Shown piece by piece: positions 52,556 through 60,095 of a stretch of DNA of 60,467 nt. Position 1 is the stretch's first letter; every line of letters begins with the position of its first letter. This stretch comes from Oligoflexia bacterium. Its GTDB lineage: Bacteria > Bdellovibrionota > Bdellovibrionia > JABDDW01. The translations under genes and the position numbers were made by a program. The DNA lies in the NCBI GenBank assembly GCA_020847095.1, contig JADLCR010000018.1, positions 1 through 60,467 on the forward strand, written 5' to 3'. The notes beneath the pieces were generated by a model. The model had not been told where the DNA came from and searched no databases. It saw only the letters and a list, made by a program, of their open reading frames with translations.

Positions 52556-53314
52556 CTAAAACCCAGTTGTCAAAATCGCCTGGTTTTCTGATACCCATCC
52601 GATGGAGCCATCCTTAGATCGAACTTGAAACCAACCGGGTTGGGTTTCGATTACGGCAAACTCCAATCCTTCAGTGACCCGAGCAATATCCGCGGTTGTG
52701 CTATCGGGTCCGCTCTTTAAGGCCGAAGAAGGTGCTACAATGGTAACGCGACGGGTGGTTTGGTCAACAAGCTTTGAGGTTGCCAGTCCCAAACTCAGCA
52801 CAAACAAAATCCCCCAAACGATAAGAAGACTTGGCCAGGCTCCTGGATTGTCCTTGTGAGATTGAAGAAATTTATAGAGGTTAAACAAAAACCAAGTCAT
52901 GGCAAAGAATAGGACAATTAAGAACTCTCTTAAGGTTCCTTGACTAAGGACCAGTTTTCTAAAAATTCCCCAATTGCTTTCGGCATAACGGGCCGCTTCG
53001 GGGATTTGCTCCAAAGCAGAGCGCAAAGCCATTCGACCTTGAGGATCTCTTGGCTGAAAATTAAGGCCCTTTCTTAGATAGGCCGCAGCCAAACCAAATT
53101 GTTTTTGACGCAAAGCAATAATCCCTAAATTGTAATATGATTGGGCACGCGTTCTGGGCTGATCCGCCGCGCTCTTGAAGAGTTCGACCGATCGCGTTAA
53201 ATTGCCAGACTGAAACTCCCTCACGGCCTGGTTGAAAATTTGGGAAGGGTCGTCGGCGATTGTGACTTCTGGCAAAATTAAGAGTATGAAAAGAGCCAAC
53301 TTTTTCAAATGCAT
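52556..53314 (-). CDS. BatE-like TPR membrane protein with SH3 domain
   Basis: A 252-residue protein: signal peptide (KLALFILLILPEVTIA), two TPR units (about 25-105, SYYNLGIIALRQKQFGLAAAY), two membrane segments (about 130-150 and 160-180) and a C-terminal bacterial SH3 domain (about 190-250, ending GWVSENQAILTTGF). This order is that of BatE in Bacteroides-type Bat (aerotolerance) operons, but no BatA-D is near. ATG 53314 has a weak site; in-frame TTG 53308 gives a cleaner MKKLALF start. Confidence 0.72.
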   Translation of the reverse strand: MHLKKLALFILLILPEVTIADDPSQIFNQAVREFQSGNLTRSVELFKSAADQPRTRAQSYYNLGIIALRQKQFGLAAAYLRKGLNFQPRDPQGRMALRSALEQIPEAARYAESNWGIFRKLVLSQGTLREFLIVLFFAMTWFLFNLYKFLQSHKDNPGAWPSLLIVWGILFVLSLGLATSKLVDQTTRRVTIVAPSSALKSGPDSTTADIARVTEGLEFAVIETQPGWFQVRSKDGSIGWVSENQAILTTGF

Positions 53315-53340: not shown

Positions 53341-54729
53341 TTGACACAAGCAGAGCTTTTTAATCAAAACGAGATTGTTAAGAAAAGTATAAAAACGCTC
53401 AAAGAGCAGTTGCTCCGAGCACAAGAATCCATAACTGGAATTCGGCCGCCTCAAAATGAAAAGGTCGAGGCCTACAAGTCCTACATATCAAATCTTAATC
53501 AGCTGCGAGGTCGAAATCTATTTTACAACTACATAGGTTCGGGGTTTGGGAGCGGGCCGCTTGTGGAGTTGGAAGATGGTTCAGTTAAGTATGATCTGAT
53601 TAATGGCATCGGCATCCACTTATTCGGGCACAGCCATCCCGAAGTGATTCTAGCCAGTCTGGAGGCGTCTCTGCAAGATGTTGTGATGCAGGGAAATCTT
53701 CAGCCAAACCGAGAGTACGGGGACTTGTTGGAGTTACTCTTAAAAGAAGCGGGCAAAAAATCTCGGTTGAGAAAAGGCTGGATCGGAACTTGTGGAACAA
53801 TTGCTAACGAAAACGCACTAAAAATCGCTCGTCAAAAAAACTCGCCAGCGAGAAAGATTTTAGCCTTTAAAGATTGTTTTGCTGGGCGCTCGACCTTGAT
53901 GGCCGAGATCACCGATAATGACGAGTACCGTGCGGGTCTGCCGCGATACGACGAGGTTTTATATCTTCCATTTTATGATTCGACCGATCCTCACTCGACT
54001 CAGAAATCGGTTGAAACCTTGAAAAAACATGTGGCCAATAATCCCAAAAACATCGCGGCCTTTATGTTTGAGATTGTGCAAGGCGAGGGAGGATTTAACA
54101 CCGCTCCCAAAGCGTTCTTTCAGGCGCTGTTTGAAGTTTGCAAGGAGCACAAAATCGCTGTTTGGGCTGACGAAATTCAAACGTTTGCGAGAACTGGAAA
54201 CCTATTTGCCTTCGAAACACTTGGCATCGGTGAATACATCGATATCGTCACGCTGGCCAAAACCGCTCAATGTGGAGCGGTTTTATATACGGAGGAGTAC
54301 AATCCTAAACCGGGGCTTATTGCTGGAACTTTTACTGCTGCAACAGTTTCACTAAAGACGGGACATAAAATTTTGCAAATGATGCTCGACGAGAAACCGG
54401 GGCAGAAGATGCTGGGTTCTGGCGGGCGGGTTGAAAAAATTCACAATGAGTTTAAGGCCATGTTGACCAAACTTGCAGAAGGGGATTGCCGAGGTCTGAT
54501 TGGCGAAATTGGGGGACTGGGGCTTATGATTTCGATGGTTCCCTATGACGGAGCCAAAGACAAAGTTCAAAAGCTGCTGCAGTCGCTTTTCGAAAAAGGT
54601 GTGATTGCCTTTAGCTGCGGGCACGGTCCTTACAAAATTAGATTTCTCCTTCCGGCAGTTTTGGAAGCTAGACACATAGAAGAAATTGGTGGCGTCCTTA
54701 AAGAGGCACTGATTGCGGGGAGACCTTAA
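53341..54729 (+). CDS. Class III aminotransferase (AstC/ArgD-like), divergent
   Basis: A 462-residue PLP-dependent fold I aminotransferase. Class III parts are present: GIHLFGHSHPEV, VWADEIQTFARTGNLFAFE with the PLP Asp, and DIVTLAKTAQCG with the Schiff-base Lys. The usual SGTEANEAAL is replaced by CGTIANENAL, so it is not a typical acetylornithine aminotransferase. By context it should use succinylornithine and 2-oxoglutarate, giving succinylglutamate semialdehyde for AstD. It starts with TTG 53341, eight bases after AAGGAG, 26 bp from the divergent BatE-like gene. Substrate is inferred. Confidence 0.8.
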   Translation: MTQAELFNQNEIVKKSIKTLKEQLLRAQESITGIRPPQNEKVEAYKSYISNLNQLRGRNLFYNYIGSGFGSGPLVELEDGSVKYDLINGIGIHLFGHSHPEVILASLEASLQDVVMQGNLQPNREYGDLLELLLKEAGKKSRLRKGWIGTCGTIANENALKIARQKNSPARKILAFKDCFAGRSTLMAEITDNDEYRAGLPRYDEVLYLPFYDSTDPHSTQKSVETLKKHVANNPKNIAAFMFEIVQGEGGFNTAPKAFFQALFEVCKEHKIAVWADEIQTFARTGNLFAFETLGIGEYIDIVTLAKTAQCGAVLYTEEYNPKPGLIAGTFTAATVSLKTGHKILQMMLDEKPGQKMLGSGGRVEKIHNEFKAMLTKLAEGDCRGLIGEIGGLGLMISMVPYDGAKDKVQKLLQSLFEKGVIAFSCGHGPYKIRFLLPAVLEARHIEEIGGVLKEALIAGRP

Positions 54730-56073
54730 TTGGACTTTCTTAACCTCTGCAAGAAGGCGATTGAAATTGATTCGACCCCGAGTGTGGGGAATGCCGCTAT
54801 GGCTGAATTCGCGGCTGATCTTTGTCGCCAATGGGGATTTGACGTTCACCTTCAAAAAGCGGAGTTTGACGGCAAAAAACAATACAACTTGTATGCGCGC
54901 CCTCCGGCATCAAAAAAGCGAGACGAAGTTATTTTTCAGACCCACCTCGATACGGTCGAACCGGGTCCCATGGGAAATTGGACAAAAACTGATCACAACC
55001 CATTTAAAGCTCATGTTGATGGTGATTTTATATATGGGCTTGGACCCGCGGATGTGAAATTAGACTTTCTATGCAAGGCTCGGGCATTGAAAGAGTTTGT
55101 TGCTCAAAAACAGACTCGCCCTTTTGTTTTGGTGGGAACTTATGCTGAAGAGCTCGGGATGCATGGGGCTCGGCTTGTGATGAGCTCCGGTGCCGTGCAC
55201 GCGAAATGGGCAATAATTGGCGAGCCTTCAGAGCTCAGTATTGTCTATGGGAACAATGGGTATCTTGTTTGCCGCTTTGAAATTCCATTTACCTCAGAAG
55301 AAATGAACAATCTGAGAGGGGCCCGACGGGACGACCATCATACGACCCAAGAAAAAGTATTTCATGGAAAAGCCGCACACTCGGCTACCCCGCATTTGGG
55401 TGAAAGCGCCATTAATAAAGCACTACAGTACTTAGCAAAAATGCCTCGAGGAGTAGGACTGTTGTCAATCAGTGGCGGTTCGGCGGTGAATACGGTTCCG
55501 GCAGACGCGACGCTTGAAATGGATGCGGGACATGTTTTCAAGGAAGCCGCGTCGATTAAGTTGCTGGAGTTGTTTCGAGCTTTAAACCGGCTTGAGACCG
55601 AATTCTTGTCACATGAGTACAAGGAGTTTCATCCGCCTCACCCCACGTTGAATCTGGGTATTGTTCGCACCGATGAGCAAAAAATTTGGGGCCGGTTCTC
55701 GGTGAGGATTACCCCACAAATTGACGATTCAACGGTGAAAAATTGGACGGGGAGAGTTGAAGAGCTTTGCAAATCTCAGAAAATTCAATTTTTTATTGAG
55801 CGCAGCTCTCCGGCGGCGCTAACCCCAACGGCTTCAGAATTAATCACCACCGCGATTGGCATTTCAAAACAACTGGGTCTCAGCGAAACGCCTATTACTA
55901 AGGCTTCGGGCACGGAGTGTTCAATTTATAGGCCGCATGGGTTGGACTGTTTTGTATTTGGACCAGGTGTGAGCCTGGGCAATAGTCACACGGCAAATGA
56001 AAGAAATCAGTTGTCCCATCTTGAAAAAGCCACCGACTTTTATCGAGAGTGCGTGAAGAGGTTTTGTCTATGA
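54730..56073 (+). CDS. M20-family metallo-amidohydrolase (putative desuccinylase)
   Basis: A 447-residue ArgE/DapE-type dizinc hydrolase. Metal ligands are in FQTHLDTVEPG (His about 77), GLGPADVKLD, YAEELG with the general base Glu, and IGEPS. The lid domain spans about 175-300. The operon context suggests it removes succinate from succinylglutamate (or succinylornithine), replacing AstE, which belongs to another family. It starts with TTG on the base after the aminotransferase stop and overlaps the astA ATG (ATGA). Confidence 0.85.
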   Translation: MDFLNLCKKAIEIDSTPSVGNAAMAEFAADLCRQWGFDVHLQKAEFDGKKQYNLYARPPASKKRDEVIFQTHLDTVEPGPMGNWTKTDHNPFKAHVDGDFIYGLGPADVKLDFLCKARALKEFVAQKQTRPFVLVGTYAEELGMHGARLVMSSGAVHAKWAIIGEPSELSIVYGNNGYLVCRFEIPFTSEEMNNLRGARRDDHHTTQEKVFHGKAAHSATPHLGESAINKALQYLAKMPRGVGLLSISGGSAVNTVPADATLEMDAGHVFKEAASIKLLELFRALNRLETEFLSHEYKEFHPPHPTLNLGIVRTDEQKIWGRFSVRITPQIDDSTVKNWTGRVEELCKSQKIQFFIERSSPAALTPTASELITTAIGISKQLGLSETPITKASGTECSIYRPHGLDCFVFGPGVSLGNSHTANERNQLSHLEKATDFYRECVKRFCL

Positions 56074-57101
56074 GTTTTTTGCTGCGCTCAATTAAAACCA
56101 GTGATCTTCGTGATGTAAAAGGTCTCGCTGAAGAGTTCAACCTTCTCAATCTCCCGCCAGACGAGAGAATCATTTCTGAAAAAATTGAGAGAAGTAAAAA
56201 ATCTTTCGCAGGCAAGACTACCACCCTCGATGAAAGCGAATACTTTTTCGTCGTTGAAGATACTGAGGCTAAAAAGGTCGTCGGTACGAGTCTCATTATG
56301 GCCAAACACGGAACTGAAGATTCCCCGCACACCTTTTTTGACGTCAGGCAAAAAGAGAAGTTTTCAAAAGAGCTCGGAATTGGTTTTATTCATCAGGTTT
56401 TGCGAATCGGATTCGACTCCGATGGACCTTCTGAAATCGGCGGGCTTATTGTTGATGAGGCCTATCGAGGTCGACCTGAAAAACTTGGAAAGCAAATCAG
56501 TTTGATTCGATTTTTATACATGGGAATGTACCCACAGCGGTTCGAAGACCGCATTTTGTGTGAGTTCGTCCCGCCACTCAGTCCCGATGGTAGGAGTGAG
56601 TTTTGGGAAGCTCTTGGGAGAAAATTTACAGGACTTCCTTACCAAGAAGCCGATTTTTTGTCCGGCCAAAATAAGGAGTTTATTAAAAATCTCTTTCCCG
56701 ACGAAGACATCTACACTTGCGTTCTTGACGCCAAAGCCCGCTATGTCATCGGGCGTGTGGGTTTAGCGACGATGCCAGCAAAGCATCTGCTTGAAGCCAT
56801 TGGATTTAAGTATCTCAATCAGATCGATCCGTTTGATGGGGGACCACATTATGGGGCCAATAGAGATGACATTACGTTGGTGAAAAAGACGAAGGCCTAT
56901 AAAGTTGTTGATGGAAAAGTCGGTCAGTTTGATGCGCTGGCGTTAGTGGGTCAAACCAAGGGCGAAGAGTTTAACGGGTGTCTTAGTTATTTTGATGTGA
57001 AGGCGGGGAAGCTGGTGTTGCCCGATAGCACAAAGCAACTGCTGGATCTTTCAAATGGCGATCAGGTGTTTCTGACGCCGATATCGGAGGGCACATTATG
57101 A
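56070..57101 (+). CDS. astA: Arginine/ornithine N-succinyltransferase
   Basis: A 343-residue AstA-family GNAT-like acyltransferase that moves succinyl from succinyl-CoA to the alpha-amino group of arginine or ornithine. It matches E. coli AstA along its length: LRSIKTSDLRDVKGLAE at the start, YFFVVEDTEAKKVVGTS near 60, REFW-like SEFWEALGRKFTGLPYQEADFL near 185 and FDGGPHYG near 260. ATG 56070 follows GAAGAGG. The substrate cannot be told from sequence; ornithine is favoured because no AstB is present. Confidence 0.92.
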   Translation: MSFLLRSIKTSDLRDVKGLAEEFNLLNLPPDERIISEKIERSKKSFAGKTTTLDESEYFFVVEDTEAKKVVGTSLIMAKHGTEDSPHTFFDVRQKEKFSKELGIGFIHQVLRIGFDSDGPSEIGGLIVDEAYRGRPEKLGKQISLIRFLYMGMYPQRFEDRILCEFVPPLSPDGRSEFWEALGRKFTGLPYQEADFLSGQNKEFIKNLFPDEDIYTCVLDAKARYVIGRVGLATMPAKHLLEAIGFKYLNQIDPFDGGPHYGANRDDITLVKKTKAYKVVDGKVGQFDALALVGQTKGEEFNGCLSYFDVKAGKLVLPDSTKQLLDLSNGDQVFLTPISEGTL

Positions 57102-58627
57102 AAAGCAAAATTTATCCCATTCCGTTTCTTGGAGATTTTATTGGTGGCGAATTTATAAAGCCTACAGCGCCGAATGGAAGTGTTGAGCGGCGAGATCCAG
57201 GTGATTTAAAAAAAGAACTTATAACGATCCAATTCAAGTACGAACATGTCAATGAAGCCTGTGCCGCTGCAAAGAAAGCATTTCGATCATGGGCCGATAA
57301 AAGCCTCGATGAAAGAAAAGCCCATTTAATAAAACTCAAAGAAACCTATATCGCCCATCAAGAAGAGCTGGCTGAAATAATCTCTCAGGACTCCGGTAAG
57401 CCCCTTTGGGAAGCCAAAACTGAAGTCCAAAGCATGATCAATAAAATAGATGTGACTTTGAACGAATCGCTAAAGCTTATTGAGGAAAAGCGAGTCGATC
57501 AAGCCGTCGGGAGCACTCCAGGCTTTTTGCGTTTTAAACCTCGAGGCGTCATGGCCGTCATTGGGCCTTTTAATTTTCCGGGACATTTGCCCAATGGACA
57601 CATCATTCCCGCTCTCATAACGGGAAATACAGTGGTCTTTAAACCGAGCGAGTTAACTCCGGCCGTTGGGCAGTTCATGGCCCAGATTTTTGAGAAAGCG
57701 GGATTTCCCAAAGGAGTGCTCAATGTGGTGCAGGGTGATGGTGAAGTTGGAAAACGGCTCGCGATGCATGAAGCGGTTGAGGGGGTATTGTTTACCGGGT
57801 CTTACGAGACTGGATTTCGTATCAAACAAGACACCTTGGCGCATTTTTGGAAAATTCTTGCTTTAGAAATGGGTGGAAAAAACGCTTCGGTCGTCTGGGA
57901 TGACTGCGATATTGACAAGGCCGTGTATGAAAACCTCATCGGCGCTTACATTTCTGCGGGGCAAAGGTGCAGCGCCACCAGTCGTATTATTGTGAGAAAA
58001 TCAGTTTCCGATGAGTTCATCTCGAAATTTCACGCTTCCGCAAAAAAGTTAACGATAGGTTATGGATTGGAAAATCCTTTTATGGGCCCTTTGATTAGCT
58101 CTGGGTCGGTTGATAAATATTTGCGATTTCAGGGCATAGCTAAACGTGAAAACGCTGAACAAATCATGAGAGGAAAGGTTTTAGAGTTCGATCGCGAAGG
58201 TCATTATGTGACGCCGTCGATTAATCTTGTCACCAAGGCGGATCCAGAAAGCGTATATCAAAAGTCAGAGGTGTTTGGTCCAAACGTAGCGATTTACATA
58301 GTCGATGAGTTCAATGAAGCGCTGAAAATTGCAAATCAATCAAGTTTTGGTCTGGTGCTGTCAGTTTTTTCTAAAGATCGAAAATTATACGACCGGTTTT
58401 TGCGCCAAACCCGAGTGGGTTTGGTCAACTGGAATCGGTCGACCGTAGGGGCGAGTAGCAAGCTTCCGTTTGGGGGAATGGGAAAGTCGGGAAACAATCA
58501 ACCCGCAGGGACATTTGCCATCTACAGCGTGACCTATCCGGTTGCTTGTTTGGAAGATCAATCGCCGCTTGATTTGAGCAAAATGCATCCGGGAATGAAT
58601 TTCAATTTGGAGAGTTTCAATAAGTGA
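57098..58627 (+). CDS. astD: Succinylglutamate semialdehyde dehydrogenase
   Basis: A 509-residue NAD(P)-dependent aldehyde dehydrogenase. The AstD-specific stretch GPFNFPGHLPNGHIIPAL (about 150-167) is present, with Glu about 257 in LALEMGGKN and catalytic Cys about 291 in GQRCSATSR. It converts succinylglutamate semialdehyde to succinylglutamate. Start and stop overlap both neighbours by four bases (ATGA with astA, GTGA with ruvX). It is about 20 residues longer than E. coli AstD. Confidence 0.94.
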   Translation: MKSKIYPIPFLGDFIGGEFIKPTAPNGSVERRDPGDLKKELITIQFKYEHVNEACAAAKKAFRSWADKSLDERKAHLIKLKETYIAHQEELAEIISQDSGKPLWEAKTEVQSMINKIDVTLNESLKLIEEKRVDQAVGSTPGFLRFKPRGVMAVIGPFNFPGHLPNGHIIPALITGNTVVFKPSELTPAVGQFMAQIFEKAGFPKGVLNVVQGDGEVGKRLAMHEAVEGVLFTGSYETGFRIKQDTLAHFWKILALEMGGKNASVVWDDCDIDKAVYENLIGAYISAGQRCSATSRIIVRKSVSDEFISKFHASAKKLTIGYGLENPFMGPLISSGSVDKYLRFQGIAKRENAEQIMRGKVLEFDREGHYVTPSINLVTKADPESVYQKSEVFGPNVAIYIVDEFNEALKIANQSSFGLVLSVFSKDRKLYDRFLRQTRVGLVNWNRSTVGASSKLPFGGMGKSGNNQPAGTFAIYSVTYPVACLEDQSPLDLSKMHPGMNFNLESFNK

Positions 58628-59040
58628 GAATATTAGCCCTAGACTTTGGTGACGTTCGAATTGGAGTCGCAATTAGCGACGAGATGGGTTGGACAGCGCA
58701 GGGAGTGGGGTTTATCAAACGCGCGTCGCTTGAAAAAGATCTAAAAGAATTGGAGCGAGTCATTCAGCCTTTTGGAACCGTTGATGAAATCGTCGTTGGA
58801 ATGCCCTTTAATATGGACGGTTCTGAAGGAGAAAGGGTTCACAAAACCCGAAAATTTTGCGATGCTTTGTCAAAGCGGTTTAATATTCCAATTATTGAAG
58901 TGGATGAACGGTTAAGCTCAATGGAAGCAGAAAAACTCATGATCTCATCAGATGTGAGTCGATCCAAAAGAAAAGGAAAAATTGACCAACTTGCAGCGAG
59001 CATTATTCTACAAACATATCTTTCGACGAGGATGAAATGA
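58624..59040 (+). CDS. ruvX: RuvX/YqgF-family nuclease
   Basis: A 138-residue RNase H-like protein, the putative Holliday junction resolvase or pre-16S rRNA nuclease YqgF. Motifs: LALDFGDVRIGVAIS with the first Asp, IVVGMPFNMDG, and VDERLSSMEAE with the second acidic residue, then DQLAASIILQTYL. The start GTG overlaps the astD stop and the end overlaps mltG (ATGA), a chain of coupled genes. Confidence 0.94.
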   Translation: MRILALDFGDVRIGVAISDEMGWTAQGVGFIKRASLEKDLKELERVIQPFGTVDEIVVGMPFNMDGSEGERVHKTRKFCDALSKRFNIPIIEVDERLSSMEAEKLMISSDVSRSKRKGKIDQLAASIILQTYLSTRMK

Positions 59041-60095
59041 AGAAGCTATTTGCAGTTTTATTTGTCATTGCGGGTCTTGCTCTGGCATTTGAGATTGGAA
59101 GCAACATTCATTTTATGCTCAAGCCAACATCGACGGACTCTACTCCTAAAATTATTTTAATTGAACCGGGATCATTTAATCAAACCGTCGCCCTTCTAGA
59201 GAGAGAAGGGCTTATTTCCGATGCTAAGAGATTTCGAATAGCCGTTCGTATCATGGGCATGAGCGGCCGAGTTAAGATCGGTGAATATCAAGTGTCTGCC
59301 GATATGTCGCCGTTTCAAATTTTAAGAATCATCTCGTCAGGAAAGAGCATTCTTCACGCCGTTAAGATTCCTGAGGGCTTTAATATCGACCAAATCGCTG
59401 AGGAGCTGGCTAAGAAAAATTTGGTGAGTGTTGAGGAGTTTACGGCCATGGCCCGCGATCCGCGAATGGCCAAGTTACTTGATGTTGAAGGCGACACTTT
59501 AGAGGGATACCTTTATCCCGAGACCTACAGCTTTACCCATTTTACTGGCGTACGAACTATCATTCAGACCATGGTTGGAAAGTTTAAAGAAGTTTGGGAG
59601 CGCGAATTGAGATTCGGAGCTCAAAAACTTGGATATAGTCAAAAATTTGTAGTGACGTTAGCAAGTATTGTTGAAAAAGAAACGGGTGCGGCGATTGAGC
59701 GACCGGTGATCGCAAGCGTTTTTCATAATCGACTTAGAATCGACATGCCTTTACAAAGTGATCCGACGGTTATTTATTCAAAACCTCCGTCGGAGCGTTT
59801 AAACATCACGCGAGCGGACTTAGTGTCTAAAAATGATTACAACACCTACACAAAAAAGGGATTACCCAAAGGGCCTATTTCAAATCCTGGTAAAGACGCC
59901 ATGATTGCAGTCATAGAACCTGCTCACAGCAAATTTCTTTATTTTGTTAGCCGTAACGACGGTTCTCATCAATTTTCCGAAACTTTAAAAGAACACAATA
60001 TGGCGGTTCAAAAGTTCCAAAGAAATGCAAAAGCTCGAGAAGGAAAGAGCTGGCGCGATCAGGCAGAAAACCCTCAGCTCACTAATAAGAAATAG
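59037..60095 (+). CDS. mltG: Endolytic peptidoglycan transglycosylase MltG
   Basis: A 352-residue inner-membrane transglycosylase that cuts nascent glycan strands and sets their length. There is one N-terminal membrane helix (about 5-20, FAVLFVIAGLALAFEIG), a LysM-like region (about 40-110, ILIEPGSFNQTVALLEREG), and the YceG domain with catalytic Glu about 213 in TLASIVEKETG, VFHNRLRIDMPLQSDPTVIY and YNTYTKKGLPKGPISNPG. It is coupled to ruvX, whose family is often found next to mltG. Confidence 0.95.
   Translation: MKKLFAVLFVIAGLALAFEIGSNIHFMLKPTSTDSTPKIILIEPGSFNQTVALLEREGLISDAKRFRIAVRIMGMSGRVKIGEYQVSADMSPFQILRIISSGKSILHAVKIPEGFNIDQIAEELAKKNLVSVEEFTAMARDPRMAKLLDVEGDTLEGYLYPETYSFTHFTGVRTIIQTMVGKFKEVWERELRFGAQKLGYSQKFVVTLASIVEKETGAAIERPVIASVFHNRLRIDMPLQSDPTVIYSKPPSERLNITRADLVSKNDYNTYTKKGLPKGPISNPGKDAMIAVIEPAHSKFLYFVSRNDGSHQFSETLKEHNMAVQKFQRNAKAREGKSWRDQAENPQLTNKK

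Follow-up and report, generated by a model that had tools for sequence, protein, structure and literature searches.

The window, a stretch of 60,467 nucleotides analysed as a whole, contains a four-gene cluster at positions 53341 to 58627 that resembles the AST pathway and includes neither AstB nor AstE. This raises the question of which enzymes could supply the two missing steps, and whether arginine or only ornithine would enter the pathway.

The four-gene cluster and its conservation

The first-pass annotation had described an AST-type cluster at this position, and its coordinates, strand and Pfam families were confirmed. All four open reading frames lie on the forward strand and abut or overlap by a few bases. 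The first gene (53341..54729, +) encodes a class III aminotransferase (AT) of 462 aa with a TTG start (PF00202, 181 bits), for which the role of AstC is proposed. Directly after its stop codon lies the TTG start of the gene encoding an M20 hydrolase of 447 aa (54730..56073, +; PF01546, 84 bits, and PF07687, M20_dimer), a putative succinylglutamate desuccinylase. The next gene (56070..57101, +) encodes an AstA-like succinyltransferase of 343 aa when read from the ATG at 56070, which overlaps the M20 stop codon; an in-frame GTG at 56049 is a possible alternative start. The AstD-like aldehyde dehydrogenase gene (57098..58627, +; 509 aa; PF00171, 409 bits), whose product is the predicted succinylglutamate-semialdehyde dehydrogenase, begins with an ATG that overlaps the stop codon of the AstA-like gene. 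The chain of genes runs on into a RuvX-like gene (58624..59040, +), which overlaps the astD-like stop codon, and an MltG/YceG-like gene (59037..60095, +); both were identified by sequence inspection and belong to the flank, with the RuvX-like gene lying outside the pathway. On the other side, a gene for a protein with TPR and SH3-like domains (52556..53314, -) is divergent to the cluster and is followed by cyclic-nucleotide-binding and PerM-like genes. This divergent flank is common to relatives, an MltG-like gene is also found 3' of astD in loci L038, L040, L044 and L046, and a RuvX-like reading frame occupies the same place in L076 and L078.

The identification of AstA and AstD had been called clear. 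The AstA-like protein belongs to the AstA family by PF04958 (320 bits against a cut-off of 29), and its scores with TIGR03243 (229 bits, cut-off 284) and TIGR03244 (219 bits, cut-off 391), like those of the AstD-like protein with PRK09457 (474 bits, cut-off 514) and TIGR03240 (452 bits, cut-off 579), were under the curated cut-offs, these AST models being the best NCBIfam models for both proteins. The AT, a class III aminotransferase with the PLP lysine, reached 96 bits with the AstC model TIGR03246 (cut-off 610). Since all three proteins scored below the curated NCBIfam cut-offs, the assignments hold at the level of the family but not of the equivalog. Identity with the E. coli proteins was 29.5% over 261 aa for AstC, 32.5% over 338 aa for AstA and 38% for AstD, and the best PDB match of the AT was PuuE. 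Judged by sequence, the cluster is a diverged branch and not the canonical AST set. The PLP lysine of the AT (K307) was conserved in 77 of 77 sequences, and the catalytic Cys291, Glu257 and Asn159 of the AstD-like protein were kept in 65 of 65.

AstA-like genes were found in 54 of 60 relatives from the class and in 303 of the 369 genomes of the phylum. The gene order AT-M20-AstA-AstD recurs far beyond chance: it was seen in 61 of 80 named loci with a complete run and in most class loci read, including that of Bdellovibrio bacteriovorus; in strain kdesi (L143), the M20 gene lies directly 3' of the AT gene. A profile scan with the AT alignment gave only Bdellovibrionota-type records among the matches listed. 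The cluster is judged to be a new form of the AST pathway that has been conserved across a phylum made up largely of predators. A typical Bdellovibrio-type cluster was also seen in CALQIT020000003.1 (L167), a record titled as a Streptomyces griseus MAG, which seems to be mislabelled.

Bdellovibrio and its relatives live on the amino acids of their prey. No literature on Bdellovibrio together with succinylglutamate was found, and the papers retrieved do not set out how this group uses arginine. In a 2024 paper on Bdellovibrio amino acids, arginine and ornithine were measured and were not among the significantly consumed metabolites.

The missing AstB step and ureohydrolase U

The absence of AstB and of classical AstE, both stated in the first-pass annotation, was borne out in the assembly from which the window derives (97% complete). 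It gave no match to the AstB family PF04996, for which the E. coli control was positive, and no match to the AstE_AspA hybrid domain PF04952; with PF24827 there were only weak M14-like matches (best 1.7e-11), of a kind present in nearly all class genomes, including those without AstA. Although some relatives carry AstB away from the cluster, these results make a complete canonical pathway, with astB and astE elsewhere in the genome, extremely improbable. The stronger PF24827 matches of some relatives (about 1e-40) were considered as desuccinylases and set aside because they did not track the loss of M20; the one that was read (L101) adjoins a RimK-like gene. Arginine deiminase, considered as another route for arginine, was essentially absent, with a single 23.5-bit match in the same genome as the window.

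A candidate for the AstB step is named by its exclusion of AstB. This is U, a 311-aa ureohydrolase encoded beside mutY, outside the window, whose distribution is clean and two-peaked. AstB was found in 31 of the 369 phylum genomes. Among the AstA-containing genomes of the class and of families f25-f28, U was carried by 126, AstB by 23, neither by 14 and both by none (Fisher p = 1e-18, a value that ignores relatedness). When U was shuffled within families, which lessens the problem of relatedness and does not remove it, zero overlap arose in none of 20000 trials and the mean overlap was 12.3. Five genera (g27, g8, g61, g168 and g172) hold both U-type and AstB-type genomes, and a swap is visible at one locus, where the order is alaS-astB-mutY in G029 and alaS..U..mutY in G002 and G048. 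U mostly follows AstA, being absent from 9 of 13 AstA-less genomes in the class and from 13 of 13 in f25-f28; the complete genome G006, which lacks AstA and yet has U, counts against this link. U seems to supply the AstB step in most relatives, and others carry AstB instead.

At 56760..56762 (+), a Gly codon stands where E. coli AstA has its predicted catalytic His229, according to an alignment with AstA of E. coli K-12 and of P. aeruginosa (1yle). This position was Gly, Ala or Ser in 72 of 72 sequences of the clade, and His was never kept, even in AstB-bearing genomes. In the active site of AstB, E174, H248 and C365 were intact in 10 of the 10 read. Each AstB-bearing genome of the class has a single AstA, which belongs to the same clade as that of the window. 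The conservation of this AstA clade and its AstB partners make it probable that it is active, though through an altered active site. The H229A change in Acinetobacter was tested only jointly with L125A (PMC12375414).

U scored 218 bits with the agmatinase model TIGR01230 (cut-off 174) and 97.5 bits with the rocF arginase model (cut-off 227.6), and the solved structures nearest to it were 3-guanidinopropionase (3nip) and proclavaminate amidinohydrolase (1gq6), not an arginase. The substrate of proclavaminate amidinohydrolase resembles an N-acylated arginine. U shares its sequence family and metal motifs with such agmatinase-type ureohydrolases, but its distribution, which tracks AstA, excludes AstB and shows no pairing with arginine decarboxylase, argues against agmatine as the substrate. 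It is also unlikely to be an agmatinase because arginine decarboxylase (SpeA) was present in 60 of 60 class relatives and a different agmatinase-like gene lay within 10 kb of SpeA in 42 of the 44 checked.

AstB acts on succinylarginine. Because the relatives that have it possess AstA of the same kind, arginine is probably a substrate of the shared AstA. With a single AstA of one clade beside AstB, it is most economical to suppose that the succinylarginine made by AstA is the substrate of U as well as of AstB. The first-pass annotation had suggested that arginine reaches ornithine in another way. In U, a separate candidate for removal of the guanidino group was indeed found, but the evidence favours its action after AstA, on succinylarginine, over a route in which arginine bypasses AstA. 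U probably splits succinylarginine into succinylornithine and urea, the main rival being an arginase. In that case, arginine would first be converted to ornithine by an ordinary arginase-like reaction, and the AstA-like protein would be an ornithine succinyltransferase. Both the U/AstB exclusion and the link with AstA are also compatible with an arginase, canonical AstA takes ornithine too, and a homologue dedicated to ornithine, AstO of Acinetobacter, is known (PMC12375414). However, U lies far under the arginase cut-off and above that for agmatinase, its nearest structures are of other enzymes, and the specificity of AstA would have to switch at each exchange of U and AstB. No AstA residue signature separating AstB-bearing from U-bearing genomes was found (one column against a random mean of 1.35, a weak comparison of 13 sequences). 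Action as an arginase is, on these grounds, possible but somewhat unlikely. It is tentatively suggested that U is an N2-succinylarginine ureohydrolase, which would give the AST pathway a form that releases urea, and that U has been repeatedly exchanged with AstB across Bdellovibrionota. We know of no report of such an activity, and no literature pairing succinylarginine with a ureohydrolase was found. If U does work on succinylarginine, its activity would be new to enzymology, and the name agmatinase, suggested by model scores, would be wrong for genes in more than a hundred genomes.

In the genome of the window, the gene for U (G000:C55:42720-43643, the same as L059:6721-7650) contains two in-frame TAA codons. 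Together with a change of the GGDH motif to GVDH, they fall within about 20 codons, and the remaining frame is open. Elsewhere in the gene, the codon pattern is still the one expected under selection, with 70, 50 and 183 differences at the three codon positions. Either the gene was lost recently, or the assembly is damaged at this place. Owing to the two stops, the present arginine route is uncertain in this genome. If the stops are real, the ornithine-only route proposed in the first-pass annotation may be what remains here.

The M20 hydrolase and the proposed pathway

All seven active-site residues of the M20 hydrolase, comprising five metal ligands, the catalytic Glu and an Asp, are present in the window (H72, D74, D108, E140, E141, E165 and H420). 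The best PDB folds for its AlphaFold2 model (pLDDT 88) were E. coli ArgE and several DapE proteins, and ArgE and DapE are also its closest families in sequence. The fold and the dinuclear site are common to these enzymes, and DapE also removes a succinyl group, but the M20 protein scored under every NCBIfam cut-off and had 19% identity over the structural match. The intact active site and the ArgE/DapE fold make the previously proposed role of desuccinylase plausible in this genome.

This role cannot be extended to the relatives in general. All catalytic residues were kept in only 34 of 70 named loci; the gene was lost in G051 and in both f5 loci read, G024 has a degenerate copy without a Pfam match, and the order in other families is AT-AstA-AstD, with no M20 gene. 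Over the same loci, the catalytic residues of the AT and AstD were invariant. Since M20 is dead or missing in many relatives with intact AT, AstA and AstD, it is no general substitute for AstE, and the repeated loss of its active site warns against inferring replacement of AstE from context alone. In relatives of families f3, f7 and f8 (e.g. L035, L036, L039, L043, L107 and L108), the Glu-Glu pair was often changed to Ala-Gln, Ala-His or Gln-Gln. From these substitutions, it looks as if the enzyme had turned non-catalytic and had nevertheless been retained in the operon.

These losses would fit an M20 protein that serves as a partner or as a regulatory subunit, or that acts on another acylated amino acid, with a different hydrolase freeing glutamate. 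The M20 protein is also the fastest-changing of the four, with a median identity of 36% against 52-58% for the others. However, in the window, in its family, in most of f2 (B. bacteriovorus included) and in other classes (L075, L076 and L078), no ligand has been lost and M20 remains part of the AST cluster. Such a non-desuccinylase role is therefore considered rather unlikely.

With the M20 hydrolase taken as the desuccinylase, the following pathway may be proposed, each substrate in it being a prediction. The AstA-like protein would succinylate arginine and/or ornithine at the alpha-amino group. Succinylarginine would be split into succinylornithine and urea by U in most relatives, this step falling to AstB in others. 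The AT would convert succinylornithine to the semialdehyde, which the AstD-like protein would oxidize to succinylglutamate, and the M20 enzyme, intact in this genome, would most likely strip the succinate to give glutamate. Where U carries the two in-frame stops, as here, the pathway may now start from ornithine only. Against an AST reading stand the distance of the AT from AstC, the lack of His229 in AstA, the broken U of this genome and the frequent inactivation of M20. With these points weighed, it is held with moderate confidence that the four genes form the core of an AST pathway specific to this lineage, in which U supplies the AstB step in most relatives.

As in the astCADBE operon of E. 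coli K-12 (NC_000913.3), AstA shares an operon with enzymes of the AstC and AstD types, here in their proposed roles. In contrast to astCADBE, the cluster lacks AstB and AstE and has the order AT-M20-AstA-AstD; its AT is only distantly AstC-like, its AstA is without His229, and a ureohydrolase encoded elsewhere would replace AstB in relatives. The astNOP genes of Acinetobacter (PMC12375414, PMC12478604) likewise include homologues of AstC and AstA without AstB and serve entry into the pathway from ornithine. They differ in having a permease and no AstD or AstE of their own, a full ast operon being present in the same genomes, as well as in having neither an M20 gene nor a link to a ureohydrolase.

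A second AstA in family f12

In f12 genomes (L066, L068, L073 and more), a second, more canonical AstA, in which His229 is kept, occurs with an AT and an AstD near a gene for HGLS (2-oxoadipate dioxygenase). HGLS lay within 8 kb of the second AstA in 28 of 51 genomes, and this set could form a succinylated route for lysine. The AstA-like protein of the window might also succinylate lysine, with 2-aminoadipate and not glutamate as the end product, and the related set near HGLS in 28 genomes points in this direction. However, HGLS was not found in the window's own family, the AstA of the window belongs to a clade other than that of the second AstA, and AstB, where present, implies succinylarginine, which makes a lysine pathway at this locus very unlikely.

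In these same genomes with two AstA genes (L067:7092-7889, L069:6862-7542 and L074:7396-8226), a lone AstA remains at the ancestral syntenic place. It adjoins a shortened protein without a Pfam match, which in L074 resembles a remnant of an aminotransferase. In Bdellovibrio (L085:6868-8826), an HGLS gene is divergent to a gene for an M14 carboxypeptidase-like protein, and the same pair is present in L088.
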